In this document: positions 40,119-63,233 of the stretch, piece after piece
How the letters are laid out: the number at the start of each line of letters is the position of its first letter
Position numbering within the stretch: position 1 is the first letter of the stretch
Assembly (NCBI RefSeq): GCF_017603825.1
Contig: NZ_CP072014.1
Coordinates: 1,364,001-1,428,000 of the forward strand
Reading direction: 5' to 3'
Source of the DNA: Arthrobacter crystallopoietes
Lineage (GTDB): Bacteria; Actinomycetota; Actinomycetes; Actinomycetales; Micrococcaceae
DNA: 64,000 nucleotides
Translations under genes and position numbers: made by a program
Notes under the pieces: generated by a model
Told to the model about the DNA's origin: nothing
Seen by the model: only the letters and a program-made list of their open reading frames with translations
Databases searched by the model: none

Positions 40119-40123
40119 GCCGG

Positions 40124-40942: not shown

Positions 40943-41088
40943 TGCGCTCCTTGGGGCCGACTGAGGCTGTCACCGCCCACCCGGGGCTGTATCAGCACAG
41001 TCTGCCCCGGGGCCTGCCGCAAGACAAGCCGTACCGGGACGCCAGGGGGGAGGTTTCCGGAGGCAGTGCCGGGCGCTAGCCTAGGTCC

Positions 41089-41475
41089 ATGATCACTTCC
41101 GTGCACACGCTGATCTACTCCGATGATCCGACGGCTACCCGGGCGTTCCTGCGCGACGTACTGCAGTGGCCCGCGGTTCCCGACGCCGGCTCGGGCGAGG
41201 ACTGGCTGATTTTCAAGACCGGTCCGAGCGAGCTGGGTGTGCATCCGACCCGCGGCGTCTGGGAAGGCGAGGAGTTTTCCGCCCCGCGGCACCACCAGAT
41301 CGCCCTGATGTGCGACGATCTGGCGGCCACCAGGTCCGAACTGGAAAGCCGCGGCGCGGGCTTCAGCTCAGAATCAACGGACATGGGCTTCGGCACGGGC
41401 GCGATGCTGCAGGTGCCCGGCGCCGACGACATCCTGCTGTACCAGCCCTCGCACGCGTCTGCGTTCAATCTGTAG
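41089..41475 (+). CDS. VOC-superfamily protein
   Basis: 128 residues. TSVHTLIYSDDPTATRAFLR at the start and the second-module block HHQIALMCDDLAATRSELES followed by GAGFSSE and LLYQPSH show a single-chain glyoxalase fold. Metal ligands are not certain. It is followed 28 nt later by ppc, whose ribosome site lies in the gap, so a shared transcript is possible, though no functional link is evident. Confidence 0.8.
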   Translation: MITSVHTLIYSDDPTATRAFLRDVLQWPAVPDAGSGEDWLIFKTGPSELGVHPTRGVWEGEEFSAPRHHQIALMCDDLAATRSELESRGAGFSSESTDMGFGTGAMLQVPGADDILLYQPSHASAFNL

Positions 41476-41503
41476 GGCCAGCTGATGGCACAGGAGGATT
41501 TTG

Positions 41504-44293
41504 ATGCCTGAAGGGGATCTCGATGCCAGGCTGCGCGCGGATGTCCGGCGAGTCAGCACGCTGCTGGGCCAATCGCTGGTGCGCCAGCACGGCCCGGAGC
41601 TGTTGGAGCTGGTGGAGCAGGTACGGCTGCTAACCAAGGAGTCCAAGGAGGCGGCCCGCGGGGGCGGGGAAGCCAGCGGGCCGTGGACGGCGCGTGACGT
41701 CGCGGACCAGGTGCGCGAACTACTGGCGGGACTGCCCATCCGCCAGGCGACGCAGCTGGTGCGGGCCTTCACCTTCTACTTCCATCTGGCCAATGCCGCC
41801 GAGCAGGTCCACCGCGTCCGGACCCTGCAGACCCGCCCGGAACAGGACGGCTGGTTGGCCAAGGCCGTAGCGGACGTCGCCGCGAAAGCAGGTCCCGCAG
41901 TGCTGCAGGAGGCCGTGGACGCGCTGGATGTGCGGCCGGTCTTCACCGCACATCCCACCGAGGCATCGCGCCGTTCGGTGCTGGATAAGCTGCGCAAGCT
42001 CTCCGATGTGCTGGCGGTGCGGACTGCCGAGGACAGCGTGGCCAGACGGCGGCAGGACCGCATGCTGGCGGAAATCATCGACCAGATGTGGCAGACGGAC
42101 GAGCTGCGGCAAGTGCGGCCCAGTCCGGTGGACGAGGCCCGCAACGCCCTCTACTACCTCGACAACATTTTCCGCGGCGCGGTGCCGGAGCTGCTGGCCG
42201 AACTGGCGGAGCTGCTGGACGGCCACGGCGCGGTCCTGCCCGCCGAGCGCTCGCCGCTGCGGTTCGGCAGCTGGATCGGCGGCGACCGGGACGGCAACCC
42301 GAACGTCACCGCAGACGTGACCAGGGAGATCCTCGCCCTGCAGAACCAGCACGCCGTGCGGATCGGGATCGAGCAGGTGGACGAGCTGATTTCAGTGCTG
42401 TCCAACTCCACAGCGCTCGCCGAAGCGGAGCCGGAGCTGTTGGATTCCATTCAGCAGGACCTGGAAAAGCTGCCCGGGCTGGATAAACGCGTGCTCGTGC
42501 TGAACGCGCAGGAGCCGTACCGCCTCAAACTGACCTGCATCAAGGCCAAATTGATGAACACCTCCGCCCGTGTCCGAAACGGCACCGCCCACCAGCCCGG
42601 GCGGGACTACGCCTCCGCAACGCAGGTGCTGGACGAGCTGGGGCTGCTGGAACGATCGCTGCGCGCCCACGGGTCCTCACTGGCCGCGGATGGAGCGCTG
42701 GCCGGGGTGCGCCGGATCATGTCCGCCGTCGGCCTGAACCTGGCCACGCTGGATGTCCGCGAGCATGCCGAGCGGCACCACGCCGTTGTTGGTGTGTTGA
42801 TGGACCGGCTGGGCGAACTGTCCGGGCCGTACGCAGACCTGGAGAGGGCGGAACGCCAGGCGGTGCTGTCGAAGGAGCTCGCTTCCCGCCGGCCGCTGGC
42901 GCCGGTGCCGGCTCCGCTGGCGGGCGAGGAAGCCAAGACGTACGCAGTGTTCGGCGAAATCCAGCGGGCATTGGAGACTTACGGTTCGAACGTGGTGGAA
43001 ACCTACATCGTGTCCATGACGCGCGGACCGGATGACGTGCTCGCCGCCGCGGTCCTGGCGCGGGAAGCCGGCCTGCTGCGGCTGCACGGCGAGGACGCGT
43101 TTGCGCGCGTCGGCTTCGCGCCGCTGCTGGAAACCGTGGAGGAGCTGCGCCGGTCCGGGCGGATTCTGGACGGGCTGCTGGCGGATCCGCAGTACCGCGG
43201 GATTGTCCGGCTCCGCGGCGACGTGCAGGAAGTCATGCTCGGGTACTCGGATTCGAACAAGGAATCCGGTGTGCTGACCAGCCTCTGGGAAATCCACCAG
43301 ACCCAGCGGGTCCTGCGCGACGTTGCCGCCAAACATGGGGTGCGGCTGCGGCTCTTCCATGGCCGCGGCGGCTCCGTTGGGCGCGGCGGCGGACCTACCT
43401 ACGACGCCATCCTGGCCCAGCCGAACGGCGTGCTGGAAGGCGAAATCAAGTTTACCGAGCAGGGCGAAGTCATTTCGGACAAGTACTCGCTGCAGACGCT
43501 GGCACGGGAGAACCTGGAATTGTCGCTGGCGGCTGTGCTGGAAGGCTCTGCGCTGCACCGCGAACCGCGTACCTCCGCCGGCGAGCGCCATCGCTACGGC
43601 CAAGTGATGGAAACCGTCTCGGATGCGTCCTTCCGCTGCTATCGCGGGCTCATCGAGGATCCGGACCTGCCGGAGTACTTCTTCACCTCGACGCCGGTGG
43701 AGCAGTTGGGCTCGCTGAAGATCGGCTCACGTCCTTCCATGCGCCCGGATTCAGGTGCCGGTCTGGAAGGGCTGCGCGCCATCCCGTGGGTTTTCGGCTG
43801 GACCCAGTCGCGGCAGATCGTGCCCGGCTGGTACGGCGTCGGTTCCGGGCTGAAGGCGGCGCGCGAAGCCGGCCACGGGGAGGTGCTTCAGGAGATGGCG
43901 GACCGGTGGCACTTTTTCCAGACCGTGGTCTCCAACGTGGAGATGACCTTGGTCAAGACGGATCTGGAGATCGCCGCGCACTATGTGGCCACGCTGGTGC
44001 CGGAGCGGCTGCAGCACCTGTTCGAGAGGATCCGCGAAGAGTTCGAGCTCACGGTGGCCGAGGTTCGGCGCCTCACCGGCGAAGTGCGCCTGCTGGACAA
44101 CCAGCCGGTGCTTAAGAAGTCGTTGGAGGTGCGGGACCAGTATCTGGATCCGATCTCCTACATGCAGGTGGAGCTGCTGCGCAGGCTGCGCGCGAACGGG
44201 ACCTCGGGCGGCGGCGCGCCGGATGAGAGCCTGCAGCGGGCCATGCTGATCACGGTCAACGGCGTCGCGGCAGGCCTGCGCAACACCGGCTGA
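41504..44293 (+). CDS. ppc: Phosphoenolpyruvate carboxylase
   Basis: 929 residues from the ATG at 41504, which is preceded by AGGAGG at a 6-nt spacing. It converts PEP and bicarbonate to oxaloacetate, replenishing the citric-acid cycle. [11 protein letters not shown] holds the catalytic His, [13 protein letters not shown] and [15 protein letters not shown] the PEP and carboxylation sites, and the C-terminus [20 protein letters not shown], then NTG, is the allosteric end. The length matches bacterial enzymes. The product oxaloacetate would support growth on aromatic compounds, but the gene is probably housekeeping. Confidence 0.96.
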
Positions 44294-44368
44294 GCCTGCC
44301 CGGGCGTCGCTTCCGGCCAGCGGAATCCGATTGTTGCCACGGCCACGCTGCTGGTCCACGGTGGGAGC

Positions 44369-45055
44369 ATGACCAAGCTCCTGCCTGCCGCCAACCAGTA
44401 CGGCCACGACGTCACCGGCGCCATTGCTGCAAATCCCGACGGCGTGATCGCGCTGGACCCGGTGCTCGCCCGGATCTGGGAACTGGCAGCACCCTTGCTG
44501 GCCATCCGCGACAACGACGCGCACACGCTGTATGCCTTCGGCCTGGCCCGTGCCCTGCTGGACTTGCATCCGGCGGCGGATGCCGGCGTCGTTCTTCCGG
44601 CGATTATGCTGCACGACATCGGCTGGTCGCAGGTGCCTCCGGAGGAGGTGCTCGCTGCGATCGCTCCGGGCGGCGGTCGGCCGGATCTGGTGCTGCTGCA
44701 TGAAAAGGAAGGGGCCGGCCTGGCCGCGGACATTCTGGCCGAGGTCGGCTACGACGCGGCCAAGGTACCCGCGATTCTGCAGATCATCGACGGACACGAT
44801 TCGCGGCGCGAGGCCCTCTCGGTCGAGGACGCCATTGTGAAGGACTCGGATAAGACCTGGCGGTTGAGTCCGCACGGCATAGACACTGTGATGGACTGGT
44901 TCGGGCTGGAGCGGGAGCAGGCCGTGCGGCTGTGCAGCCAGCGGGTCCATGGCCACCTGTTCACTGAGGAGGCGAAAGCGATGGCGCGGGCGTTGTCGGC
45001 GCTGGAGTCGGTGACCCTGTGGCCGCAGCGGCGTGCCTTGCTGTCAGAGGACTAG
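44369..45055 (+). CDS. HD-domain phosphohydrolase, CreD paralogue
   Basis: 228 residues. The HD pair is in IMLHDIGWSQVPPEE, and IIDGHDSRREALSVEDAIVK continues the metal-site region. The blocks IIDGHDsR, EDAiVkDsDktWR and GIDTVMDWFGLEREQ align with the HD protein at 53075-53848 (IIDGHDTR, EDALVRDADRLWR, WFG), so the two are paralogues. It sits 82 nt before the IclR gene of the cre-like cluster on the same strand. A phosphatase role on an aryl or benzyl phosphate is inferred from that likeness; the substrate is not shown. Confidence 0.75.
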   Translation: MTKLLPAANQYGHDVTGAIAANPDGVIALDPVLARIWELAAPLLAIRDNDAHTLYAFGLARALLDLHPAADAGVVLPAIMLHDIGWSQVPPEEVLAAIAPGGGRPDLVLLHEKEGAGLAADILAEVGYDAAKVPAILQIIDGHDSRREALSVEDAIVKDSDKTWRLSPHGIDTVMDWFGLEREQAVRLCSQRVHGHLFTEEAKAMARALSALESVTLWPQRRALLSED

Positions 45056-45136: not shown

Positions 45137-45922
45137 ATGGCGGGCGGAAGCCGCGATGCGGGACGATCCGTGACCTCCAGGGTCCTTGCCATCCTCGAGG
45201 CCTTCGAAAAGGCCCGCGGATCGCTCAGCCTCACGGAGATTTCAGCGGGATCCGGGTTGCCGCTCAGCACCACGCACCGGCTGGTCGCCGAACTGACCGA
45301 CTGGGGATTCCTCTCGCGCGGAGCCAACGGCCGCTACCAGTTGGGTATCCGGCTGTGGGAGCTGGCGCAGAACGCCGGACGGCAACTGCGCGAAGCCGCG
45401 CGGCCATTTGTCCAGGACCTGTTCTCCCTCACCGGTGAGACATCCCAGCTCGCGGTCCGCGAAGGACATGAGGTGCTCTACATCGAGCGCATCTACGGCA
45501 CGAAGCGTGTTCCGCGCGCCTCACGGGTCGGCGGGCGGCTGCCGATGCATGCGACCGCCGTCGGCAAGGTGATCCTGGCCTTCGAGGAAGAATGGGTCCG
45601 CATCGCGTATCTGAACCGCGAGTTGGAACGTACCACGGCGCATACACATATCCACGCCGGGCGGCTTGCCAAGGAACTCGACACCATCCGTGAGCAGGGC
45701 TTTGCCACCACGTTGGAGGAAGTCCGGCTCGGATCCTGCTCGATCGCCGTTCCGGTCTTCCATACCGGCGTCATTGGTGCGGGACTGGGGTTGGTGCTGC
45801 CGACAGCGCAGGCCGCCACCATGAACCGGCACCTGCCTGTGCTCAAAGGGGTTTCGGTGCAGATTGAGCGAGCAACGGCCCACATCCCACTCGAAACGCT
45901 GCTGGGCAGCCACCGCAAATAG
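45137..45922 (+). CDS. creR: IclR-family transcriptional regulator, probable CreR
   Basis: 261 residues with GAGGAGG 5 nt ahead of the ATG. The N-terminal winged helix (about 10-75) reads SVTSRVLAILEAF-like VTSRVLAILEAFEKARGSLS, then LPLSTTHRLVAELTDWGFLS; the effector domain (about 85-255) has VGGRLPMHATAVGKVILAF and LGSCSIAVPVFHTGVIGAGL. IclR regulators often control aromatic pathways. It lies directly upstream of the P450 gene on the same strand, with a 174-nt gap that contains a perfect 15-bp palindrome. Naming it creR rests on position only. Confidence 0.82.
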   Translation: MAGGSRDAGRSVTSRVLAILEAFEKARGSLSLTEISAGSGLPLSTTHRLVAELTDWGFLSRGANGRYQLGIRLWELAQNAGRQLREAARPFVQDLFSLTGETSQLAVREGHEVLYIERIYGTKRVPRASRVGGRLPMHATAVGKVILAFEEEWVRIAYLNRELERTTAHTHIHAGRLAKELDTIREQGFATTLEEVRLGSCSIAVPVFHTGVIGAGLGLVLPTAQAATMNRHLPVLKGVSVQIERATAHIPLETLLGSHRK

Positions 45923-45980
45923 CTGCGGCTGCGGACGGCTCCAGCGACGACAGGACGCCGTCGTCGTCGTTCTATTCGCT

Positions 45981-45995
45981 TTCCACTCAGTGGAA
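45981..45995. promoter_or_regulatory. Perfect 15-bp palindrome, probable IclR/CreR operator
   Basis: TTCCACT-C-AGTGGAA has perfect 7-bp arms. It lies between the IclR gene and the P450 gene, 102-116 nt ahead of the P450 start. IclR-family operators are typically palindromes of about this size, so this is the best candidate site. Confidence 0.75.
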
Positions 45996-46096
45996 GAGCG
46001 TGATGTGCGCCACGGGTGATGTGGGCAACACTGGTGTGAACGAACCCGTTGTATGGTCCAGCAACCGCCAACGGGAACCAACCCCAAGGAGAACAG

Positions 46097-47374
46097 ATGT
46101 CACCCTCGACGGAAACGGCGGCCCGCTGCCAGTTCGGCCACGGCGCCGAGGCGCCTGCCGGGCACCACGGCTACGAACCGTTCCAGATGAAGGATCCTTT
46201 CCCCGCCTACGCAGAACTGCGGGCCGAGCAGCCGGTCATGTTCGACGAGCGCATCGGCTACTACGTAGTTTCCCGCTACGACGACATCAAGGCAGTTTTC
46301 GAAGACTGGGAGACCTTCTCGAGCGAAAACGCGCAGGCCCCGGTCCGCGAGCGCGGCCCGGCCGCCAAGAAGATCATGGAAGAGGGCGGCTTCACCGCAT
46401 ACTCGGGACTCTCCGCCCGGCGCCCGCCGGAGCACACCCGGATCCGCTCGGTCGTGCAGAAGGCCTTCACGCCCCGCCGCTACAAGGCGTTGGAGCCCTT
46501 CATCCGCCAGAACGTGGTGGACCTGGTGGAGAAGATGCTGGCCCGGCCCGAGCGCACCGGCGACCTGGTCAAGGATCTGGCCTACGACGTCCCCACGATC
46601 ACCATCCTCACGCTGATCGGCGCCGATGTCAGCCAGGTCGACAAGTTCAAGCGCTGGAGCGATTCCCGCGCGGCGATGACCTGGGGTGACCTGAGCGACG
46701 ACCAGCAGATCCCGCATGCGCACAACCTGGTGGAGTACTGGCAGGAATGCCTGCGCCTGGTCCGCGTGGCCCATGAGGAGGGCGGCGACAACCTCACCGC
46801 CGACCTGGTGCGTGCACAGAACGACGGCGCGGAGATCTCCGACCACGAGATCGCGTCGGTCCTCTACAGCCTGCTGTTCGCAGGCCACGAAACCACCACC
46901 ACGCTGATCGCCAATTCACTGCGCGTGCTGCTGGCCCGCCCGGAACAGTGGGCGGTGCTGGTCGAGGAGCCGAAAAAGATCCCCGGCGCCATCGACGAGG
47001 TGCTGCGCTACTCCGGCTCGATTGTCGGCTGGCGGCGCAAGGCGCTCAAGGACACCGAAGTCGGCGGGGTGAAGATCGAAGAAGGCGGACAGCTGTTGCT
47101 GCTGATGGGCTCGGCGAACCGTGAAGAGGGCAAGTTCGAGAACGGCGAGGATTTCGACATCTCCCGCCCCAACGCCCGCGAGCACCTGTCCTTCGGTTTC
47201 GGTATCCACTACTGCCTGGGCAACATGCTGGCCAAGCTGCAGGCCAAGATCGCCCTCGAGGAAGTCGCCCGGCTTGCCCCGAACCTGAAACTGCAGGATC
47301 CCGAGGACATCGCGTTCCGCGAAAACCTGTCCTTCCGGGTCCCCGAATCCGTTCCCGTTACTTGGGAGGCATAA
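46097..47374 (+). CDS. creJ: Cytochrome P450, CreJ-like
   Basis: 425 residues from the ATG at 46097 with AAGGAG 5 nt ahead. The oxygen-binding helix has FAGHETTTT, the ExxR motif is EVLRY, and the heme-Cys loop is FGFGIHYCLGN. The class-I redox partners are encoded downstream (ferredoxin 51421, reductase 51744). In the C. glutamicum cre pathway the P450 CreJ oxidises the methyl group of phosphorylated 4-cresol, and the neighbours here match that set. The substrate is inferred from this context. Confidence 0.88.
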   Translation: MSPSTETAARCQFGHGAEAPAGHHGYEPFQMKDPFPAYAELRAEQPVMFDERIGYYVVSRYDDIKAVFEDWETFSSENAQAPVRERGPAAKKIMEEGGFTAYSGLSARRPPEHTRIRSVVQKAFTPRRYKALEPFIRQNVVDLVEKMLARPERTGDLVKDLAYDVPTITILTLIGADVSQVDKFKRWSDSRAAMTWGDLSDDQQIPHAHNLVEYWQECLRLVRVAHEEGGDNLTADLVRAQNDGAEISDHEIASVLYSLLFAGHETTTTLIANSLRVLLARPEQWAVLVEEPKKIPGAIDEVLRYSGSIVGWRRKALKDTEVGGVKIEEGGQLLLLMGSANREEGKFENGEDFDISRPNAREHLSFGFGIHYCLGNMLAKLQAKIALEEVARLAPNLKLQDPEDIAFRENLSFRVPESVPVTWEA

Positions 47375-47379
47375 AGCAC

Positions 47380-48561
47380 ATGGAAAGCAACGAGTACATC
47401 CAGTTTTTCGACGGCGGCCTCGAACCGAAGCTCGAAACACTCGGCGGCAAGGGCGCGTCCCTGGTCACCATGACCGCCGCCGGCATGCCGGTTCCGCCCG
47501 GATTTGTGGTCACTACTGCGGAGTTCGATGCGTTTATGGCCGAAGCTGGCATCACCCGGCAGATTAACGAATTGCTGGCGGGCCTCGATCCCGAGGACAT
47601 AGCGCAGGTGGACAAGGTCTCGGCGGCTATCCGCGAGCAGATCTGCTCGCGGCCTGTTCCAGAGGCCATCCGGGCGGTGACCATCGAGGCCTACGACTCC
47701 CTGATGTCCCGGTTCGAAACACCGGTCCCGGTGGCCGTCCGCTCCAGCGCCACGGCCGAGGACCTGCCGGATGCTTCCTTCGCCGGCCAGCAGGATACTT
47801 ATCTGTGGCTGGAGGGCGTCAAGGCCGTCACTGAGCACATCCGCCAGTGCTGGGCCTCGCTCTACACGTCGCGCGCCATCATCTACCGGCTGAAGAACAA
47901 CATTCCCGACGAGGGCCTGTCGATGGCCGTGGTAGTGCAGAAGATGGTCAACTCCAAGGTCTCCGGCGTCGCCATCACCATGGACCCGGCCAACGGGGAC
48001 CGCTCGAAGATCACCATCGATTCTTCCTATGGCGTCGGTGAAATGGTGGTCTCGGGCCAGGTCACCCCGGACAACATCGTGCTGGACAAGGTGACCCTCG
48101 CGCTGGTGTCCGACCACCTGGGCGACAAGCATGCCGAACTCGTTCCGGATAGCGCCGCACGTACCTTGGTGGAGCGGGAGGTCGACGCCGAGCGACGCGC
48201 CCGCCGCAGCCTGAGCGACGAGGAAGTCAAGGCCGTGGCCCTGATGGCCAAGCGGGCAGAGAAGCACTACAAATGCCCGCAGGACGTGGAATGGGCGCTG
48301 GACGCGGATCTGCCCGATGGCGAGAACCTGCTGCTGCTGCAGTCCCGCCCCGAAACCGTGCATTCCTCCAAGCCAACCGTTACCGCTACATCCAGCACTG
48401 GCGGATACGCCGCAGCCTTCGGCGCCACGGGCACCAAAGCCGGCCCAACTATGGACACCACCCCGTCAGCAGGTTCGACCCCGACCACCAACTCCACCGC
48501 CGCCAGCGGCGGCTTCAGCCTCGGCAGCATCACCGCCTCGCTGCTCAAACCCTCGGTCTGA
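47380..48561 (+). CDS. PEP-synthase-like ATP-binding subunit (CreH/CreI-type)
   Basis: 393 residues from the ATG at 47380, 5 nt after the P450 stop, with GGGAGG ahead. The first 330 residues are the PPDK/PEP-synthase N-terminal ATP-grasp domain: LGGKGASLVTMTAAGMPVPP, then VAVRSSATAEDLPDASFAGQ and the SRPETVHSS end. It should transfer the ATP phosphate to the His of the partner subunit at 48618. The last 60 residues are a Ser/Thr/Ala/Gly-rich tail without a known role. Two-subunit phosphotransferases of this kind phosphorylate phenol in phenylphosphate synthase and 4-cresol in CreHI. Confidence 0.85.
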   Translation: MESNEYIQFFDGGLEPKLETLGGKGASLVTMTAAGMPVPPGFVVTTAEFDAFMAEAGITRQINELLAGLDPEDIAQVDKVSAAIREQICSRPVPEAIRAVTIEAYDSLMSRFETPVPVAVRSSATAEDLPDASFAGQQDTYLWLEGVKAVTEHIRQCWASLYTSRAIIYRLKNNIPDEGLSMAVVVQKMVNSKVSGVAITMDPANGDRSKITIDSSYGVGEMVVSGQVTPDNIVLDKVTLALVSDHLGDKHAELVPDSAARTLVEREVDAERRARRSLSDEEVKAVALMAKRAEKHYKCPQDVEWALDADLPDGENLLLLQSRPETVHSSKPTVTATSSTGGYAAAFGATGTKAGPTMDTTPSAGSTPTTNSTAASGGFSLGSITASLLKPSV

Positions 48562-48617
48562 AACCCACCGTTACCGACCCACCGGCTCACCGCCGAGCCA
48601 CCATCGAAAGGTCCGTC

Positions 48618-50483
48618 ATGTCCATGAAGTCTTTTCCGAAGCCCTCCGAGCTGCCGGTGCCCGCCGGCGCCGAAGGCTGGGAGCAGATCTACCCGTACTA
48701 TCTGGTCTTCCAGGACAAGCTCAAGGAGCAGGAAGACGCGAAGTTCTGGTTCTGCGACAGCCAGCACTGGCCTACCGTCTACAAGCCGTTCGAAACCATC
48801 GGCGGGGAGTTCGCGGTCAAGTGCCTGGGCCAGTACAACGCCCGGCACCTGATGATTCCCAACGCCAACGGCATCGAATTCCGCGTGCACCTGGGCTACC
48901 TGTACATGTCCCCGATCCCGGTCCCCGAGGACCAGATCGCGGCGCGGGTCCCGCATTTCGAGCAGCGCGTGGGGCACTACTTCCAGAACTGGGAGGAGTT
49001 GCTGCGGCAGTGGCATGTGAAGGTCCGCGGCACCATTGACGAGATGGAGACGCTGTCCTTCAACAAGCTGCCGGACATGGTTCCGATGGATGACATCACC
49101 ACCGGCAAGGCGATGGACGGCTCCGAAGTCCTGCTGGAGAACTACGACCGGCTGATCCAGCTGGCCTACCAGAACTGGCAGTACCACTTCGAGTTCCTGA
49201 ACCTGGGCTACATCGCCTACCTGGACTTCTTCAACTTCTGCAAGGAAGTCTTCCCGAACATCCCGGACCAGTCCATCGCGACCATGGTCCAGGGCGTGGA
49301 CATGGAACTGTTCCGGCCCGACGACGAGCTCAAGAAGCTCGCCAAACTCGCCGTGGAGCTCCGCCTGGAGTCCGCCTTCGGCAATACGGACGACGTCGAT
49401 GCCACCTTGGGTGCCATCGCTGCTGCACCGGGCGGGGAGCGCTGGATTGCCCAGTACGAAGGCGCCAAGGATCCGTGGTTCAACTTCACCGTGGGCAATG
49501 GCTTCTACGGGCACGACAAGTACTGGTACGAGCACCAGGAGATCCCGCTGGGCTATATTGCCGATTACATCCGCCGGCTCGGCGAGGGCCAGAACATCAT
49601 GCGCCCCACCGAGGAGCTCATCGCGGAGAAGGAACGCATCGTCGAGGAGTACCGCGACCTGCTCGAAGGTGAAACCCAGGCGCTCTTCGACGCCAAGCGC
49701 CAGCTCGCCGCCACGGCGTACCCGTACGTGGAAAACCACAACTTCTACATCGAGCACTGGACCATGGGCGTCTTCTGGCGCAAGATCCGGGAACTGTCCC
49801 GGATGATGCATGCCGAGGGCTTCTGGACCGAACCCGATGACCTGCTCTACCTGACCCGCAACGAGGTCCGCGATGCACTCTTCGACCTGGTCACCGGCTG
49901 GGGCGTGGGCGCCGACCCGATCGGCCCCACCTACTGGCCGGAGGAGATCGAACGCCGCCGCGGCATTGTCGATGCACTCAAGACCGCCCGTCCGCAGCCG
50001 GCGCTCAACACGCCGCCGGAGTCCATCACCGAACCGTTCACCCGGATGCTCTGGGGCATTACCACCGAGCAGGTCCAGCAGTGGCTGGGTGCGGGCGAGG
50101 AAGTCGAGGGCGGCGGACTGCGCGGCATGGCGGCCTCACCCGGCGTCGTCGAGGGCGTTGCCCGCGTCGTGACGGATGCGGACCAGCTTTCCGAGGTCCA
50201 GCAGGGCGAGATCCTGGTGGCCACCGTGACCGCGCCGTCCTGGGGTCCGATCTTCGGCAACATCAAGGCCACCGTGACCGACATCGGCGGCATGATGAGC
50301 CACGCCGCCATTGTCTGCCGCGAGTACGGGCTGCCGGCGGTCACCGGCACGGGCAGCGGCTCGACCACCATCAAGACCGGGCAACTGCTGCGGGTCGACG
50401 GCACCAAGGGCACCGTGCAGATCCTGGATAACGGGGAACTCGAACCTCTCGTATCCGGCCCCGGCGCCCACAGCCACGCCTGA
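48618..50483 (+). CDS. PEP-synthase-like phospho-His subunit (CreH/CreI-type)
   Basis: 621 residues from the ATG at 48618 (GAAAGG ahead). The C-terminal 90 residues form the swivelling phospho-His domain, with the catalytic His in DIGGMMSHAAIVCREYGLPA and the closing PAVTGTGSGSTTIKTGQLLR. The large N-terminal part (1-480) is rich in aromatic residues (YYLVFQDKLKEQEDAKFWF) and lacks ATP-grasp motifs, so it should hold the phenolic acceptor. Together with the subunit at 47380 it forms a split phosphotransferase. Phosphorylation of a 4-alkylphenol is inferred from the cluster. Confidence 0.85.
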   Translation: MSMKSFPKPSELPVPAGAEGWEQIYPYYLVFQDKLKEQEDAKFWFCDSQHWPTVYKPFETIGGEFAVKCLGQYNARHLMIPNANGIEFRVHLGYLYMSPIPVPEDQIAARVPHFEQRVGHYFQNWEELLRQWHVKVRGTIDEMETLSFNKLPDMVPMDDITTGKAMDGSEVLLENYDRLIQLAYQNWQYHFEFLNLGYIAYLDFFNFCKEVFPNIPDQSIATMVQGVDMELFRPDDELKKLAKLAVELRLESAFGNTDDVDATLGAIAAAPGGERWIAQYEGAKDPWFNFTVGNGFYGHDKYWYEHQEIPLGYIADYIRRLGEGQNIMRPTEELIAEKERIVEEYRDLLEGETQALFDAKRQLAATAYPYVENHNFYIEHWTMGVFWRKIRELSRMMHAEGFWTEPDDLLYLTRNEVRDALFDLVTGWGVGADPIGPTYWPEEIERRRGIVDALKTARPQPALNTPPESITEPFTRMLWGITTEQVQQWLGAGEEVEGGGLRGMAASPGVVEGVARVVTDADQLSEVQQGEILVATVTAPSWGPIFGNIKATVTDIGGMMSHAAIVCREYGLPAVTGTGSGSTTIKTGQLLRVDGTKGTVQILDNGELEPLVSGPGAHSHA

Positions 50484-50578
50484 GCAATCCCTGCCAGGTG
50501 CTCCCAGTGCCGGGCCGGGCGAGCCGCCACTTCCCCCGGCCCCGGCCCGGCACAACCCAACGCAAAGGTTTGACGATA

Positions 50579-51385
50579 ATGCAGCAACCCACCGACGCTA
50601 ACGACGCCGCTTCCACCCGAGGGGAGCGGGCGGACCCCGGGACGGCACAGCGGACCGTGCTGATCACCGGTGCAGCCGGCGGCCTCGGGCGGGCCTTCGC
50701 CCTCGGCTTCGCCGGCCGCGGCTACCGGGTCGCCGTCGCGGACGTGAACCTGGAAGGGGCCGAAGAGACCGCCAAGCTGGCCCGCGAAGCCGGCGCCGAC
50801 GCGGCGGCCTACCGGGCCGACGTGACCGACCCCGCGTCTACGGAGTCGCTCGCCGCCCAGGTGGCGGAATTCGGGAACGGGCGCATCGACGTCGTACTCA
50901 ATAACGCGGCCATTTACGCCACGGTGACCCGCACGCCTTTCGAGGATATCGACCCGGACGAATGGGATCTGGTCATGAACGTGAACCTCAAGGGCCCGTG
51001 GCTGGTGACCCGTGCGGCGAGCCCCTACCTGGCCGACGGCGGCCGCGTCATCAACCTCTCCAGCGCCACCATTTTCTCCGGTTCCGAGCAGTGGCTGCAC
51101 TACGTCGCTTCAAAGGGCGGGGTGGTTGCGCTGACCCGGGTGCTGGCCAAGGAACTGGGCCGGCGCGGCATCACTGTCAACGCGATCGCGCCCGGCTTTA
51201 CGCTCACCGAAGCCAGCTACTCGTTGATGGACGACGCCGAAAGCTACGGCGTGGACCGCGGGGCGCTCAAGCGGGCCAGCCAGCCCGAAGACATCGTCGG
51301 GGCCGCCCTGTTCCTGGCCGGGCCTGACAGCTCGTACATCACCGGCCAAACCATGGTGGTCGACGGCGGCCGCCAGTTCATCTAA
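50579..51385 (+). CDS. creG: SDR alcohol dehydrogenase, CreG-like
   Basis: 268 residues from the ATG at 50579 (AAAGG ahead). VLITGAAGGLGRAFALGFAG is the Rossmann motif, D in VAVADVNLEG favours NAD, NNAA and SSATIFSG (Ser) follow, and YVASKGG holds the catalytic Tyr and Lys. It would oxidise the benzyl-type alcohol made by the P450 to an aldehyde. It lies in the operon between the phosphotransferase and the ferredoxin genes. Symbol by analogy with the cre cluster. Confidence 0.85.
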   Translation: MQQPTDANDAASTRGERADPGTAQRTVLITGAAGGLGRAFALGFAGRGYRVAVADVNLEGAEETAKLAREAGADAAAYRADVTDPASTESLAAQVAEFGNGRIDVVLNNAAIYATVTRTPFEDIDPDEWDLVMNVNLKGPWLVTRAASPYLADGGRVINLSSATIFSGSEQWLHYVASKGGVVALTRVLAKELGRRGITVNAIAPGFTLTEASYSLMDDAESYGVDRGALKRASQPEDIVGAALFLAGPDSSYITGQTMVVDGGRQFI

Positions 51386-51420
51386 CAGCTTCCACTCAAT
51401 TTCCAGCACAAGGAGGAGCC

Positions 51421-51741
51421 ATGCCAACGGTCTATTTCACCGACGCGGAAGGCACCACACGCGAGATCACCGGCAACCCCGGGGACTCGGTCATGGAGAC
51501 GGCCGTCCGCAACGGCGTCCCCGGCATTGTCGCCGAATGCGGCGGCTCGCTGTCCTGCGCCACCTGCCACGTTTTCGTCCGAGAGGACGAGTTGCCCGAG
51601 CTGCCGCCCATGGAGGACATGGAGGACGAAATGCTCTACGGCACCGCGGTGGACCGCGAGGACAACTCCCGCCTGTCCTGCCAGCTGAAGCTCTGCGACG
51701 GCCAGGACATCCATGTCACCACACCCGAAACACAGGTCTGA
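51421..51741 (+). CDS. creF: [2Fe-2S] ferredoxin, CreF-like
   Basis: 106 residues with AAGGAGG ahead of the ATG. Cluster ligands are C40, C46, C49 and C87 (ECGGSLSCATC and RLSCQL), the adrenodoxin/putidaredoxin spacing. It passes electrons from the reductase encoded 2 nt downstream to the P450 at 46097. The acidic stretch at residues 54-71 (EDELPELPPMEDMEDE) is the usual partner-docking surface. Confidence 0.92.
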   Translation: MPTVYFTDAEGTTREITGNPGDSVMETAVRNGVPGIVAECGGSLSCATCHVFVREDELPELPPMEDMEDEMLYGTAVDREDNSRLSCQLKLCDGQDIHVTTPETQV

Positions 51742-51743
51742 TC

Positions 51744-53066
51744 ATGAGCACCGGAACCGCTGATGCGGAAACCAAGACCAATGACGGCGCCGCCGCAGCA
51801 CCGAAGGCGCCCGCCCGGACGGGGCTGCTGATCATCGGCGCCAGCCAGTCCGGCGTGCAGCTGGCCGTCTCGTTGCGGGCCCTGGGCTTCGATGAGCACA
51901 TTACGCTGCTCGGCGACGAGGACCACCGGCCCTACCAGCGCCCGGCCCTGTCCAAGGAGTTCCTGCAGGGCACGGTGGAGAGCGAATCGCTGATCTTCCG
52001 CTCCAACGAGTACTGGAACGAGCACAACATCACGCTCGTCAAGGGCGAGTACATCAGCAGGATTGATAAGAACGACGACGGCTCCGGCACCGCGCACGCC
52101 GCCTCCGGAGCCGAATTCGGGTTCAAGCGCCTGGCCCTGACCGTCGGCGCGCGGGCGCGGAAGCTCGAACTGCCCGGGGCGGATCTGGATGGCGTGGTTT
52201 ACCTGCGCAACGCGGACGACGCCCTGGCCCTGAAGGCACAGCTGGACGGTGTCCGCGAAGCCGTGGTGGTCGGCGGCGGCTTCATCGGGCTGGAAGCGGC
52301 TTCCAGCCTGCATAAAATGGGCAAGTCCGTCACCGTCCTCGAGTACGGCCCGCGCCTGATCGGCCGCGCCGTCGGCGAAGATACCAGCGACTACTTCCTC
52401 CAGGCCCACCGCGCCCGCGGCATCGACATCCGGCTCGATGCCCGCATGAAGCGCCTGGCCGCAGCCGGCGACGGAAGCCGCGTGGCCGGCGTCGAACTTG
52501 AGGACGGCACGGTGATCCCCGCGCAGCTGGTGCTGGTCGGAATCGGCGTGGTCCCCAACACCGAACTGGCCGAGCAGCTGGGCCTGGAAGTGGACAACGG
52601 CATCGTGGTGGACTCGCACGCCCTTGCCTCCGACGGCACCACCGTGGCGGTGGGCGATGTGGCGAACATGCCCAACCCGCTGCCCGGTTCGCCGGAAGGC
52701 GAGCGCATCCGGTTGGAAAGCGTGAACAACGCGATCGAGCATGCCAAGGTAGCAGCCTATTCGCTGATGGGCCGGCGCGAGGACTATGCGGGCATCCCGT
52801 GGTTCTGGTCCAACCAGGCGGACCTGAAACTGCAGATCGCCGGCCTGACCCTCGGCTACGACCGGACAGTGGTCCGGCGCGACGACGACCGCGGTAAATT
52901 CTCCGTGCTCTACTACCGCAACGGCCGGATCATTGCCGCGGACTGTGTCAACGCACCGCTGGACTTCATGTCGGTCAAGAACGCCCTGGCCAAGGGCCAA
53001 AACATACCCGCGGACGCGGCGGCGGATCCCGCCGTCGTGCTGAAAACCATCATCACGGACGGCTAA
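51744..53066 (+). CDS. creE: Ferredoxin reductase (FAD, NAD(P)H), CreE-like
   Basis: 440 residues from the ATG at 51744, 2 nt after the ferredoxin stop. The FAD Rossmann motif is LIIGASQSGVQLAVSLRALG (the usual GxGxxG is GASQSG), the pyridine-nucleotide site VVGGGFIGLEAASSLHKMGK, and the second FAD block VAVGDVANMPNP. These mark the putidaredoxin-reductase type. The N-terminal 27 residues are an extra hydrophilic tail. It feeds electrons into the adjacent ferredoxin and so to the P450. Confidence 0.92.
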   Translation: MSTGTADAETKTNDGAAAAPKAPARTGLLIIGASQSGVQLAVSLRALGFDEHITLLGDEDHRPYQRPALSKEFLQGTVESESLIFRSNEYWNEHNITLVKGEYISRIDKNDDGSGTAHAASGAEFGFKRLALTVGARARKLELPGADLDGVVYLRNADDALALKAQLDGVREAVVVGGGFIGLEAASSLHKMGKSVTVLEYGPRLIGRAVGEDTSDYFLQAHRARGIDIRLDARMKRLAAAGDGSRVAGVELEDGTVIPAQLVLVGIGVVPNTELAEQLGLEVDNGIVVDSHALASDGTTVAVGDVANMPNPLPGSPEGERIRLESVNNAIEHAKVAAYSLMGRREDYAGIPWFWSNQADLKLQIAGLTLGYDRTVVRRDDDRGKFSVLYYRNGRIIAADCVNAPLDFMSVKNALAKGQNIPADAAADPAVVLKTIITDG

Positions 53067-53074
53067 GGAGCCCC

Positions 53075-53848
53075 ATGAGAACCCCCGACACGCAGAGTCC
53101 GCAGACTAGCAGGGACGCCGCCGGCACCGTCTGGCCCGCAGCGGATCCGGCTACGCACGCGGAGGACCCCCGCGCCACGGCCTTTGCCGCTGCGCACCCG
53201 GTGCGCCCCGTTCCAGCCACCGGCACCTTGGACACCTCGCCCATCGCCGGTACACCTGCGGCCGAAGACCTGGACAGGCTCTGGAAGGCCGTGGTGGAAG
53301 AAACCCGCAGCCGCGGCAACGACATCCACCTGCCCATCTCGCTGGCCTACGCCGAACGGCTCTGCCGGGCCTACCCGGAGGCCGACGCCGAGCTGGTCCG
53401 CGTGGCGATCGTGCTGCATGACACCGGCTGGGCGCACGTGGATGAGTCGCGCATCCTCTCCGAGGGCTTCACGGGCGACTGGCGGAAGGCGGCCATCCGT
53501 TTCGAGCACGAGGCCGAGGGCTGCAAGGTGGCCCGCCGCGTGCTGCCCGGACTGGGCTACTCCGACGGCTTCACCGCGCGGGTCTGCGAAATCATCGACG
53601 GGCACGACACCCGCCACGTGGCCTTTTCGCTGGAGGATGCCCTGGTCCGCGACGCCGACCGGCTGTGGCGCTTCGACCACGCCGGCATCGCGCTGGCCTC
53701 GTCCTGGTTCGGCATGACGCCTGCTGTGTATACGGACCGACTGGCCGCGGAGATCATCCCCGAACTCATCACCGAAGCCGCCTACGCGATGGGCACGGCC
53801 GACCTGGCACGGTCCAACGCACTGCTCAAGACAGGAGTGATCCGATGA
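53075..53848 (+). CDS. creD: HD-domain phosphohydrolase, CreD-like
   Basis: 257 residues. The first 60 residues are Pro/Ala/Thr-rich and seem disordered. The HD metal site is in IVLHDTGWAHVDESR, and IIDGHDTRHVAFSLEDALV follows. In the cre pathway CreD removes the phosphate from the oxidised aryl phosphate to give 4-hydroxybenzoate. Its stop overlaps the ALDH start by 4 nt (ATGA), so translation is coupled. The substrate is inferred from context. Confidence 0.82.
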   Translation: MRTPDTQSPQTSRDAAGTVWPAADPATHAEDPRATAFAAAHPVRPVPATGTLDTSPIAGTPAAEDLDRLWKAVVEETRSRGNDIHLPISLAYAERLCRAYPEADAELVRVAIVLHDTGWAHVDESRILSEGFTGDWRKAAIRFEHEAEGCKVARRVLPGLGYSDGFTARVCEIIDGHDTRHVAFSLEDALVRDADRLWRFDHAGIALASSWFGMTPAVYTDRLAAEIIPELITEAAYAMGTADLARSNALLKTGVIR

Positions 53849-55395
53849 CTTCCGCTGCCGACAGCACAACTGCCACCGAGGCAATCGGGCAAGCGGCGGC
53901 GTCGTTCTCCGGCCCTGCCGTGGACGCCCGCGCCGCGCTCACGCTGCCCTACACCCACGTGGACGATGTCTTCATCGACGGCGCCTGGGTCCCCGCCCGC
54001 GGCACCGGCCGCAACCCCGTCACGGATCCGGCCACCGGCCAGGTCTGGGGCTCGGTCCCGGACGGAACCCCCAAGGATATCGACGCCGCGGTCGGTGCGG
54101 CGCGCAGGGCGTTCGACGGCGGATGGTCCCGGCTGGCTCCATCGGAGCGGGCCGCCTACCTGCTGCGCATCGCCGACGAGGTGGACAAGCGGGCGGAGGA
54201 ACTGTCGCTGACCAACACCCGCGAAAACGGTTCCCCCGTCTCGGAATCCACCGGGGCCGCGGCCAACGCGGCGAGCATCTTCCGCTACTTCGCCACGCTC
54301 GCGGACTATCTGGAGCGCGAGGACGTTCGCCCGTTCCCGCGGGGCGGCGGCGAGTCGGTGGTGCGCCGGGATCCGGTGGGCGTGTGCGCGCTGATCGCCC
54401 CGTGGAACTTCCCGATCAACCTGATGGTGATCAAGCTGGCGCCGGCGCTGCTGGCCGGCTGCACCGTAGTGATGAAACCCGCCTCGCCTACCCCGCTGTC
54501 CTTCCGGCTGATTGTCGACGCCGTGGCCGCCGCCGGTGTGCCCGCAGGCGTGGTCAACCTGGTCACCGGCAGCGGCAGACTGGGTGACACCCTGGTGCGG
54601 CACCCGGGCGTGGACAAGGTGGCCTTTACCGGTTCGACCCCGGTAGGCCGCAAGATCGCCGCGGCATGCGGCGAACTGCTGCGGCCGGTCACGCTGGAGC
54701 TCGGCGGCAAGTCCAGCGCCATCGTGCTGCCGGACGCTGATCTGGATGCCATGTCCAGCGGTCTGGTGCGCTCCTGCATGCGCAACACCGGCCAGACCTG
54801 CTACATCTCCACCCGGATTCTGGCCCCCGCCGGACGTTACGACGAGGTGGTGGACATGGTGACCGCCACCATCGCCGCCGGCGTACAGGGAGACCCGCTG
54901 GATCCCGCCACGGTCTTCGGTCCGGCAGCCACCGAATCCCAGTACCGGACGGTGCTGGAATACCTGGAAGCCGGCCGGGCCGAAGGCGCCCGGGCGACCA
55001 CGGGCGGGCGTGCGGCGCGGCTGGGCGGCGGGCTCGAAGGCGGCTTCTTCGTGGAACCCACGGTCTTCGCCGATGTCACGCCGTCAATGCGGATCTCCCG
55101 CGAGGAAATCTTCGGGCCGGTCATCTCCGTGCTGAAGTACACGGACGTGGACGAGGCCGTCGCACTGGCGAACAACACCGAATTCGGCCTGGGCGGCTTG
55201 GTGTTCGGTACGGATCAGGACGCTGCGCTCGCCGTGGCTGACCGGATGGACACCGGTTCCGTGGGCATCAACTTCTTTGCCTCCAACCATTCCGCGCCGT
55301 TTGGCGGGCGGCACAATTCGGGCCTCGGCACGGAATACGGCATCGAGGGGCTCAACGCCTACCTCAGCTACAAGTCCATCCACCGCCGGCCGTAA
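53845..55395 (+). CDS. creC: Aldehyde dehydrogenase, CreC-like
   Basis: 516 residues from the ATG at 53845. VCALIAPWNFPINLMVIKLA, the catalytic Glu in VTLELGGKSSAIV and the catalytic Cys in RNTGQTCYIST identify an NAD(P)-dependent aldehyde dehydrogenase. The first 30 residues are an Ala/Ser/Thr extension. In this cluster it would turn the aryl aldehyde phosphate into the carboxylate, before CreD. It is the last gene of the plus-strand operon; a strong terminator follows. Confidence 0.9.
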   Translation: MTSAADSTTATEAIGQAAASFSGPAVDARAALTLPYTHVDDVFIDGAWVPARGTGRNPVTDPATGQVWGSVPDGTPKDIDAAVGAARRAFDGGWSRLAPSERAAYLLRIADEVDKRAEELSLTNTRENGSPVSESTGAAANAASIFRYFATLADYLEREDVRPFPRGGGESVVRRDPVGVCALIAPWNFPINLMVIKLAPALLAGCTVVMKPASPTPLSFRLIVDAVAAAGVPAGVVNLVTGSGRLGDTLVRHPGVDKVAFTGSTPVGRKIAAACGELLRPVTLELGGKSSAIVLPDADLDAMSSGLVRSCMRNTGQTCYISTRILAPAGRYDEVVDMVTATIAAGVQGDPLDPATVFGPAATESQYRTVLEYLEAGRAEGARATTGGRAARLGGGLEGGFFVEPTVFADVTPSMRISREEIFGPVISVLKYTDVDEAVALANNTEFGLGGLVFGTDQDAALAVADRMDTGSVGINFFASNHSAPFGGRHNSGLGTEYGIEGLNAYLSYKSIHRRP

Positions 55396-55486: not shown

Positions 55487-56830
55487 TCAGTCGAGGTTGA
55501 CCTTGGTGCCTTCCGGCGTAGCCCGGACGGCAATGGTGCCGGCGAGGATGACGGCGATCCAGAATGCTCCGACCAGCCAGATGCTGCCGTTGCCCGCGAT
55601 CATCAGGCCGGTGGCGATCATCGGGGTGAAGCCGGCCCCGAGCACCGAAGCTCCTTGGTAGGAAAGTGACGCCCCGGTGTAGCGCATGCGGGTGGGGAAC
55701 TGTTCGGCGATGTAGGCGCCGATGGGACCGAAGAGGGCGCCCTGCACGATGCCGTTGCCGACCACGATGGCGACGGCGAAGCCCCACAGCGTTCCGTTGG
55801 TCAGCAGCATCAGCAGCGGGTAGGCCAGCACAATGCCGGTGATGCCCGCAACGGTGAGGACCTTGCGGCGGCCGATGCGGTCACTGAGCCGGGCGGTGTA
55901 GAAGCACATGATCAGGGTAAGGACGGCGCCTGCCGCCTTCCAGTTGAGCACGCCGGAGCGGTCCACCCCATTGCCGACGGCGATGGACACGCCCCATACG
56001 GTCAGGATGCCCTGGCAGGCGTAGAAGCTCATGGTCGCGACCAGGGCAACAACCACGGCCCGCGGATGGTTGCGCAGCACATCGAAGAGCGGCATGCGCT
56101 TCTTCTCGCCGGCTTCCTGCAGCTTCTGGAACATGGGCGTTTCAGCAACCTTGAGCCGGATGATCAGGCCGACGGCGATCAGTACCGCACTGAGCAGGAA
56201 CGGAATGCGCCAGCCCCACTGCAGGAACGCGTCGCCGCTCAGGGCGGACGTCAGTGAAACCACCAGGGTGGCCAGCACGGCACCGGCGGGACCGCCTGCG
56301 GTGGCGAAGGAAGTGGCCAGGCCGCGCTTCTTCTGCGGTGCGGACTCCAGCGCCATCAAAGCTGCGCCGCCCCATTCGCCGCCCACGGCAATGCCCTGAA
56401 TGACGCGCAACGTCACCAGCAGGACCGGCGCAAGGATTCCGATCACGGCCGTCGTGGGCAGCAGGCCGATGAGGACCGTCGAGGCGCCCATCAGCAGCAT
56501 GGACAGCACGAGCATTTTCTTGCGCCCGAGCCTGTCGCCGAAGTGACCGAAAACGATGCCGCCGAGCGGGCGCGCCAGGTAGCCTGCGGCCAGCGTCGCG
56601 AAGGAGGCGAACAAACCGAAGGCGGGGCTGAGATTGGCGAAGAAAACGGTATTGAAGACGATGCTGGCTGCCGTGGCGTACAGGATGAAATCGTAGTACT
56701 CGATGGCGCTGCCGATGAAGCTGGACGCCAGGATCCGGCGCATGTCCTTCGTGTTCAAGGACTCGGATCCGGAGTGGTGCTGCGGTGCGGACGGTGCGGA
56801 CTGCGTAACGGTCGTCGGTGACTCGGACAC
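55487..56830 (-). CDS. MFS permease, metabolite:H+ symporter (MHS/ShiA-like)
   Basis: 447 residues from a GTG at 56830 with AGGAGG 4 nt ahead, preferred over an ATG 15 codons upstream. About 12 membrane segments. ASSFIGSAIEYYDFILYATA and FGHFGDRLGRKKMLVLSMLL (MFS signature) are typical of the MHS group, which takes up organic acids, shikimate and aromatic acids. VIQGIAVGGEWGGAALMALE is another group block. Beside the cre-like operon it probably imports an aromatic acid, or exports or imports the pathway substrate (inference). Confidence 0.88.
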   Translation of the reverse strand: MSESPTTVTQSAPSAPQHHSGSESLNTKDMRRILASSFIGSAIEYYDFILYATAASIVFNTVFFANLSPAFGLFASFATLAAGYLARPLGGIVFGHFGDRLGRKKMLVLSMLLMGASTVLIGLLPTTAVIGILAPVLLVTLRVIQGIAVGGEWGGAALMALESAPQKKRGLATSFATAGGPAGAVLATLVVSLTSALSGDAFLQWGWRIPFLLSAVLIAVGLIIRLKVAETPMFQKLQEAGEKKRMPLFDVLRNHPRAVVVALVATMSFYACQGILTVWGVSIAVGNGVDRSGVLNWKAAGAVLTLIMCFYTARLSDRIGRRKVLTVAGITGIVLAYPLLMLLTNGTLWGFAVAIVVGNGIVQGALFGPIGAYIAEQFPTRMRYTGASLSYQGASVLGAGFTPMIATGLMIAGNGSIWLVGAFWIAVILAGTIAVRATPEGTKVNLD

Positions 56831-56892
56831 AATTCCTCCTGAGGACGGGGTGGATGGAGTTGGGGAGGGGTTCATGATTGCAGCGCTGGTAT

Positions 56893-61808: not shown

Positions 61809-62330
61809 ATGGAGATAAGGATTCTCGAAGGTGACATCACCCGCCGCGAGGTGGACGCCGTGGTCAACGCGGCGAACTCAAGCCTGCTGGGCGGGGGAGG
61901 AGTGGACGGCGCCATCCACCGCGCCGCCGGTCCGGAGCTGCTGGCGGCGTGCCGGGAACTGCGGTCCTCGCAGCTGCCCGACGGTCTGCCGGTAGGATCA
62001 GCCGTCGCCACCGAGGCCTTCCGGTTGCCCGCCCGCTGGATCATCCACACCGTGGGCCCTAACCTGCACGCAGGCCAGAATGATCCGGCGCTACTGGCTT
62101 CCTGCTTCCGCGAGAGCCTCCGCGTGGCCGATGAGCTGGGCGCACGGTCCGTGGCCTTCCCGGCAATCAGCGCCGGGGTCTACGGCTGGGACGGCGGGAG
62201 CGTAGCCCTTGCCGGGCTGGGAGAGGCCATGAAGTACGACGGCGGCATCCAACTCATCGAGTTCGTGCTGTTTTCTGCCGGGTTGGCCGAGACCTTCCGT
62301 GGCGTCCATCGGAGCCTGCTGGGCCAATAG
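61809..62330 (+). CDS. Macro-domain protein (ADP-ribose hydrolase-like)
   Basis: 173 residues. MEIRILEGDITRREVDAVVN and NAANSSLLGGGGVDGAIHRA, with GPELLAACREL, and the later FPAISAGVYGWDGGSVALAG make a complete macro domain of the MacroD type, which removes ADP-ribose or deacetylates O-acetyl-ADP-ribose. The Asn-Asp-Gly catalytic loop is intact. It converges on the FRG-domain gene with a 32-nt gap. Confidence 0.93.
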   Translation: MEIRILEGDITRREVDAVVNAANSSLLGGGGVDGAIHRAAGPELLAACRELRSSQLPDGLPVGSAVATEAFRLPARWIIHTVGPNLHAGQNDPALLASCFRESLRVADELGARSVAFPAISAGVYGWDGGSVALAGLGEAMKYDGGIQLIEFVLFSAGLAETFRGVHRSLLGQ

Positions 62331-63193: not shown

Positions 63194-63233
63194 CGCGCCT
63201 GCCTTCCTGCCCTTGCCGTCCTGACTCCGGGTA

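Follow-up and report, generated by a model that had tools for sequence, protein, structure and literature searches.

A cre-type locus for 4-alkylphenol catabolism in Arthrobacter crystallopoietes, with a second HD-domain gene that seems to belong to its predicted regulon

RESULTS

Organization of the cre locus

The window analyzed here, meaning the whole 64,000-nucleotide (nt) stretch of the Arthrobacter crystallopoietes genome at positions 1,364,001 to 1,428,000 of NZ_CP072014.1 (whole genome, 4.38 Mb; window positions 1 to 31000 were only sampled), contains a cre locus and, directly upstream of it, a second HD-domain gene, which we term HDup, that seems to share its regulation. A preliminary description of this DNA had claimed a plus-strand run of nine domains from 45137 to 55395, and all nine occur where it placed them, with clear Pfam scores. 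Its list of nine genes stands, but it overlooked HDup (44369 to 45055) and a palindrome at 45981 to 45995.

All genes of the locus lie on the plus strand, and their start codons were chosen by ribosome-binding site and homology. The protein comparisons used G101, a genome in the genus of Corynebacterium hylobatis, as a stand-in for Corynebacterium glutamicum, with percent identities taken over the aligned parts; the cytochrome P450 of G101 shares 96% identity with the solved P450 5gwe. HDup encodes a second HD-domain protein (Pfam HD, 1.5e-05), a paralog of CreD and candidate aryl-phosphate hydrolase, and ends 81 bases before a gene for a CreR-like IclR-family regulator (45137 to 45922; IclR_C, 3.3e-33; HTH_IclR, 3.3e-16), which is 58% identical to the product of the IclR gene before creJ in G101. 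The P450 gene, creJ (46097 to 47374), is followed by the two halves of a phenol dikinase: creI, the ATP-grasp component (47380 to 48561; PPDK_N, 4.7e-110; 70% identical to G101 over residues 6 to 353 of 393), and creH, the substrate-binding and swivel component (48618 to 50483; PEP-utilizers, 6.4e-22; 77% identical to G101). CreH scores 1277.7 bits against NCBIfam NF006150, whose cutoff is 650, and its swivel sequence, TDIGGMMSH, fits the catalytic-histidine motif T/SXXGGXXXH.

Downstream lie creG, for a short-chain dehydrogenase/reductase (50579 to 51385; adh_short_C2, 1.3e-62; 74%) that by analogy would be the 4-hydroxybenzyl alcohol dehydrogenase; creF, for an adrenodoxin-type 2Fe-2S ferredoxin (51421 to 51741; Fer2, 8.9e-10; 70%); creE, for its ferredoxin reductase (51744 to 53066; Pyr_redox_2, 2.1e-54; Reductase_C, 4.6e-30; 73%); creD, for an HD-family phosphohydrolase (53075 to 53848; HD, 1.1e-08; 68%); and creC, for an aldehyde dehydrogenase (53845 to 55395; Aldedh, 3.8e-156; 72%), the final percentages again being identities to G101. 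The strings FGFGIHYCLG in the P450 and HDTGW in the creD product are intact, and the ferredoxin carries CX5CX2CX37C; we take all three to be active-site motifs. From creJ to creC, the intergenic gaps measure 5, 56, 95, 35, 2, 8, and -4 bases and are consistent with a single operon.

Assignment to the cre pathway

The preliminary description had recognized in this run the full enzyme set of the 4-cresol route, a claim that the comparisons bear out. In C. glutamicum, genes cg0637 to cg0645 encode the aldehyde dehydrogenase CreC, the phosphohydrolase CreD, CreE, CreF, the alcohol dehydrogenase CreG, CreH, CreI, and CreJ (PMC7764795), and reversing that order gives the order of the window, creJ-I-H-G-F-E-D-C, with the IclR gene in front. 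CreI and CreH are described as the ATP-grasp and swivel components, respectively (PMC12167813). All nine proteins of the window are 58 to 77% identical to those of the G101 cluster, and the gene order is identical. Best matches outside the cre set, which the preliminary description had named as evidence that would count against it, did not appear in this one-way comparison, in which G101 took the place of C. glutamicum.

The P450 scores 725 bits against the solved structures 5gwe/5xjn, as opposed to 257 bits against the next solved P450, and is 77% identical to that of G101. We take 5gwe/5xjn to be C. glutamicum CreJ; the structure entry itself is titled "Cytochrome P450." Within the segments that we set as substrate-recognition regions, 114 of 127 residues equal those of 5gwe, compared with 199 of 277 elsewhere. 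Across 84 P450 sequences, columns that are at least 98% invariant make up 80 of the 127 recognition-segment positions and 86 of the 277 others. This conservation favors, but does not prove, action on the same class of phosphorylated 4-alkylphenols.

A named-genome scan for P450 relatives supplied 82 loci for comparison (the best 80 of 119, plus 2 from the Corynebacterium sample). The block from creJ to creC is complete and colinear in 75 of these 82 loci, indicating that the arrangement is not due to chance. Of the seven loci scored as incomplete, L069 is in fact whole, its CreD having first been labeled as the paralog; L013, L014, L050, L061, and L064 are cut at the end of the available DNA; and in L031 creF was not detected. 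The 80 best P450 relatives are all from Actinomycetota, judged by title, and the closest (99%) is from Arthrobacter sp. VKM Ac-2550.

The incidence of creJ is 9 of 10 genomes in the genus of the window, 59 of 395 Micrococcaceae genomes, and 12 of 201 genomes of the Corynebacterium sample, and it occurs in two plasmid records, both from Rhodococcus. In phylum-wide samples of 396 genomes, creJ and HDup were each found only in the window's own genome, but these samples are thin and indicate only that both genes are rare there. The preliminary description viewed the locus as extending the pathway to a Micrococcaceae-like genome; the pathway is indeed present, but the lineage is not new to the databases, given the 59 family genomes that already hold it, and with so patchy a spread its presence in this genome is ordinary. 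The chromosome of Arthrobacter sp. C2 (L039 and L055) contains two complete cre clusters, with HDup found beside the first only, and a further dikinase-like pair, 50% and 42% identical to the two halves in the window, precedes the second.

HDup is an old paralog of CreD

HDup is 32% identical to the CreD of the window. Invariant positions shared by 36 HDup and 11 CreD sequences include H52, H82-D83, H111, H143, and D161, but the stretch between the HD pair and the third histidine differs between the paralogs, reading approximately SEGFxxxWRxAxIRxEHE in CreD and APGGGRPDLVxxHE in HDup, each form being conserved within its own paralog. A tree built from 33 CreD and 25 HDup sequences places the paralogs on opposite sides of one branch with support of 100/100 (the bootstrap had not fully settled). 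This branch measures 3.79 changes per column, drawn as 1.42 + 2.37 around a midpoint root, and its length and support indicate that HDup is an old paralog and not a recent copy. By the tree, HDup is a sister paralog of CreD and not a member of the CreD family. Against solved structures, a profile built from both HD paralogs gave weak matches only, chiefly to generic HD proteins (best, 2pq7 at 0.00084), and CreD searched with phmmer against the solved structures gave no match at 0.001.

A palindromic box before creJ and HDup

A 15-bp palindrome with the consensus TTCCRCTNAGYGGAA lies between the IclR gene and creJ. In the window, the box before creJ (45981 to 45995) reads TTCCACTCAGTGGAA and is the only exact match in the 4.38-Mb genome; a second copy, TTCCGGCCAGCGGAA, at 44311 to 44325, has two mismatches to TTCCRCTNAGYGGAA and sits in the 75-base gap preceding HDup, 58 bp before its start codon. 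These are the only two places in the 64-kb window with two or fewer mismatches. Across the whole genome there are 39 such places, compared with 17 for a reversed control pattern; a wide box regulon in this genome was considered and rejected, and only the two cre places were followed. Among 73 IclR-creJ gaps, 59 contain the box with two or fewer mismatches (25 exact, 19 with one, and 15 with two), whereas 50 single-base shuffles gave a mean of 0.06. Because the pattern was read from the same creJ gaps on which it was counted, this count holds partly by construction, and only scans of HDup and of plasmid DNA are independent. The box is exact in both Corynebacterium-sample loci, whose P450s are 96% and 91% identical to 5gwe.

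For the independent scan, the creJ boxes alone were used to build a weight matrix, which was run over the 250 bp upstream of HDup, with a threshold at the 99th percentile of shuffled sequences. Sites above threshold precede 48 of 62 HDup genes, and 42 of those 48 lie 57 to 63 bp from the start. The background in the same 62 loci is 152 places in 1.15 Mb, or 0.033 per 250 bp, real boxes included. Control genes rarely exceeded the threshold: CreH in 0 of 81 cases, CreE in 0 of 74, CreG in 0 of 79, CreI in 2 of 82, and the IclR gene in 6 of 83. The IclR-gene matches come from L020, L075, L026, L079, L080, and L067, the last being weak. In L020 and L075, HDup is oppositely oriented, so that one site may serve both genes; HDup is missing from the available DNA of L026, L079, and L080, whose sites would be in keeping with regulation of the IclR gene itself. 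The presence of the creJ-type box at a fixed spacing makes HDup seem, on sequence grounds, to be a member of the predicted cre regulon.

The association extends to HDup genes that are remote from creJ. Twenty further HDup loci were fetched, 14 with HDup apart from creJ in the same genome and 6 from genomes without creJ, and 19 of these were tested for the box (L117 was omitted, its HDup match being below 48%). The box is present in all 14 loci tested in which HDup and creJ are apart (L118 to L131). A conjugative plasmid of Rhodococcus ruber (NZ_CP129900.1; L141), which did not contribute to the matrix, carries the ten genes HDup-IclR-J-I-H-G-F-E-D-C together. At three or fewer mismatches, its 24.7 kb contain just two boxes, one 61 bases before the HDup start implied by alignment (133 before the annotated start) and the other 80 bases before creJ. 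Integrase, recombinase, and transposase genes lie a few kilobases from this cluster, with an aromatic or alkene monooxygenase on its other side. The other creJ plasmid contains only a 39% HD match, probably CreD.

Co-occurrence of HDup with creJ

The Micrococcaceae set comprised 395 genomes from 32 genera, with HDup called at E values of up to 1e-40. Both genes occur in 46 genomes, creJ only in 13, HDup only in 6, and neither in 330; thus, HDup is present in 52 of the 395 genomes, including 46 of the 59 with creJ but only 6 of the 336 without it. The 10 genera with HDup all fall within the 13 genera with creJ, out of 32 (P = 4e-6); the genome-level Fisher value is 2e-41, which ignores kinship. 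In the 46 genomes with both genes, the two lie within 5 kb of each other in 28, from 6 kb to 1.8 Mb apart on one contig in 11, and on separate contigs in 7, in which assembly breaks may play a part.

HDup and a CreR-like gene are kept together away from creJ in L118, L119, L120, L124, and L129, and four of these five pairs have a pobA-like gene, identified by reading the sequence only, within five genes. The 12 creJ-bearing genomes of the Corynebacterium sample yield one HD match each (33 to 38% identity), of which 11 are at the place of creD, 6 to 7 kb from creJ; in G097, the match is on another contig than creJ.

Route beyond 4-hydroxybenzoate

The genome of the window contains, at about 4.139 to 4.148 Mb, a pobA gene that scores 522 bits against NF006091 (cutoff, 351) but 419 bits against TIGR02360, short of its cutoff of 538.7. 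Adjoining it and above their cutoffs are pcaG and pcaH (the protocatechuate dioxygenase subunits), a pcaJ-type gene, and a PcaR/PobR-type regulator gene. Nearby pcaB-, pcaD-, and pcaF-like genes fall below their own cutoffs, and for the pcaB-like gene a nitrosuccinate lyase model gives a higher score, also below cutoff. Together, pobA and the pca genes suggest that the product of the cre pathway is probably usable.

Neighboring genes and other features of the window

Two genes flanking the locus were considered as parts of the system and rejected. Of 80 loci, some with little upstream DNA, only L001 and L017 have a phosphoenolpyruvate carboxylase gene beside HDup, and this gene (41501 to 44293) was therefore taken as a neighbor. 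A major facilitator superfamily gene (55487 to 56875, minus strand), tried as the pathway transporter, occupies that place only in L001 of 80; it faces the creC end and resembles the metabolite:H+ symporter type, below the model cutoff. Farther upstream, two frames (39053 to 40309 and 40391 to 41092) have no Pfam match at 0.001 and are kept in L001 at 80% and 77%.

Elsewhere in the window, an 806-residue frame (14323 to 16743, minus strand) matches PrpF and then a TctC receptor, possibly a fusion of an enzyme with a tripartite transporter receptor, and adjoins a 707-residue TctA frame (12190 to 14313, minus strand). A macro-domain gene (61809 to 62330, plus strand) and an FRG-domain gene (62363 to 63277, minus strand) are adjacent and converging.

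DISCUSSION

The most probable reading, to which we assign a probability of roughly 0.8, is that the cre locus of A. crystallopoietes is a pathway for 4-alkylphenols, with p-cresol the most likely substrate, plus one extra regulon member, HDup. Gene content and order, homology, motifs, the box with its spacing, and co-occurrence are direct observations, whereas we infer the substrate, the binding of the regulator to the box, and all activities of HDup. In the proposed scheme, CreI would take ATP and phosphorylate a histidine on the CreH swivel, and CreH would hand the phosphate to the phenol oxygen. CreJ, with electrons from CreE and CreF, would then oxidize the aryl phosphate at its methyl group, the alcohol and the aldehyde would be processed with help from CreG and CreC, and CreD would remove the phosphate, leaving 4-hydroxybenzoate for PobA and the pca genes elsewhere in the genome. 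Du (2016) reportedly found that CreJEF of C. glutamicum oxidizes the phosphorylated methyl group and that CreD removes the phosphate. For the homologous dikinases, HpeI/PpsB is described as presenting ATP and HpeH/PpsA as carrying the phosphate on a histidine and passing it to the phenol (PMC12167813).

The CreR-like IclR protein probably binds the palindrome before creJ and its copy before HDup, and boxes in both places suggest that HDup would be coexpressed with the cre genes. We regard HDup as a probable second aryl-phosphate hydrolase and, by its sequence, as an uncharacterized member of the cre regulon; it would be metal dependent and would act on a phosphorylated intermediate or analogue that CreD handles poorly.

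Several observations weigh against this interpretation. An HD fold by itself does not fix the reaction. Matches in 14 of the 73 creJ gaps have 3 to 5 mismatches, and 14 of the 62 HDup genes have no box above threshold (L030, L031, L039, L042, L043, L047, L049, L052, L056, L058, L066, L113, L114, and L115); in L042, L047, L049, L052, L056, L058, and L066, the creJ box is also off consensus by 3 to 5. Six genomes have HDup but no creJ, and the box is present in only 2 of the 5 tested. Only 43 of the 80 named loci have a clean HDup on the available DNA: 45 of the 82 loci received the label, L069 (CreD by the tree) and L025 (HD residues lost) were subtracted, and 43 is also the count at >48% identity and >80% coverage. 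HDup is absent from 13 of the 59 creJ-bearing Micrococcaceae genomes and from all 12 of those in the Corynebacterium sample, indicating that the pathway does not need it. Relatedness among genomes inflates the P values, and the genome searches scored at most four creJ or seven HDup candidates per genome. Finally, Rhodococcus opacus 1CP is reported to have other p-cresol routes (PMC13101518), and cre is thus not a prerequisite for p-cresol use.

The position of HDup relative to the regulator gene bears on a different role. Of the 45 labeled loci, 40 have HDup ahead of the regulator gene (HDup being on the other strand in L020 and L075 and degenerate in L025, with intervening genes in a few), just 3 bases separate the two on the R. 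ruber plasmid, and the pair that is kept far from creJ in five loci is 54 to 124 kb away in four and on another contig in one. Such an arrangement would suit a noncatabolic enzyme that breaks down a putative phosphorylated inducer of this regulator, closing a feedback loop. This role is possible but doubtful, in that HDup has no adjoining regulator gene in L030, L031, L043, L112 to L115, L121 to L123, L125, L126, L130, and L131, and its His and Asp residues are invariant, as in CreD. Those shared residues, together with the fact that 13 of the 59 creJ-bearing Micrococcaceae genomes and all 12 of those in the Corynebacterium sample do without HDup, could be expected of a redundant backup to CreD with the same substrate. 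Redundancy is nonetheless unlikely, given the 3.79 changes per column between the two clades and the divergent stretch between the HD pair and the third histidine, which points to different pockets.

That the whole cluster serves another phenol, either of the 4-hydroxyacetophenone type or phenol itself, as in the Hpe or Pps systems, we judge highly improbable. The CreHI, HpeHI, and PpsAB dikinases are homologous, and HpeHI is reported also to accept cresol and phenol (PMC12167813), but the window encodes a P450 with CreJ-type recognition segments, and its CreH shares 77% identity with the G101 protein, whereas HpeH, CreH, and PpsA share about 45% (PMC12167813). Pfam searches of the neighboring genes returned no HpeCBA-type biotin-dependent carboxylase and no HAD-type phosphatase (the search covered these genes only), and no phenylphosphate carboxylase is among the neighboring genes examined; an Hpe-like or phenylphosphate-type pathway was rejected for want of a carboxylase there. 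Kinases predicted for 4-alkylphenols are reported to form their own clade (PMC9618137).

Comparison with known systems also places the assignment to cre in context. The C. glutamicum cre operon has the same eight enzymes in the same order and an IclR gene in front; compared with Corynebacterium cre, the window adds HDup with its own box, and HDup is missing from the 12 of 12 creJ-bearing genomes noted above. PpsAB of Thauera aromatica and the rifampicin phosphotransferase (RPH) have swivel-histidine dikinase chemistry in common with CreHI, but Pps serves anaerobic phenol use and RPH is one chain that inactivates a drug. The single-chain RPH organization is not what the window contains, the ATP-grasp (47380 to 48561) and swivel (48618 to 50483) components being separate genes. 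The best solved matches of CreH are 5fbs, 5hv1, and 5hv2, over the swivel only (residues 499 to 604); 5hv2 is presumably RPH. Both 5fbs and 5hv1 are RPH structures (PMC12167813). The Hpe pathway of Rhodococcus rhodochrous GD02 likewise begins with a two-component phenolic dikinase, HpeHI (PMC9618137, PMC12167813), but is described as employing a biotin carboxylase and a NagD-like phosphatase, HpeD (PMC9618137), where the window has P450 oxidation and HD-family hydrolases.

The cre pathway is already known and recurs in soil bacteria of the Arthrobacter type; this locus adds one more well-supported example. What is new and testable is a paralog of the pathway's own phosphohydrolase that seemingly shares its control, along with a candidate operator for the cre regulator. 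No account of the second HD gene or of the palindrome was found among the open-license papers listed; most subscription papers and the 2016 cre paper lay outside the scope of that search, making it weak evidence of absence. With HDup in 46 of 59 creJ-bearing Micrococcaceae as opposed to 0 of 12 in the Corynebacterium sample, we see an even chance that most cre systems outside Corynebacterium include, as part of the pathway, a second and uncharacterized HD hydrolase that is under the same palindrome-controlled regulon and sets substrate range or induction, the C. glutamicum cluster used as the model being a reduced version. Why phenol catabolism should begin by phosphorylation is stated to be an open question (PMC12167813). 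HDup bears on that question and adds to it that of how the phosphate is managed afterwards.

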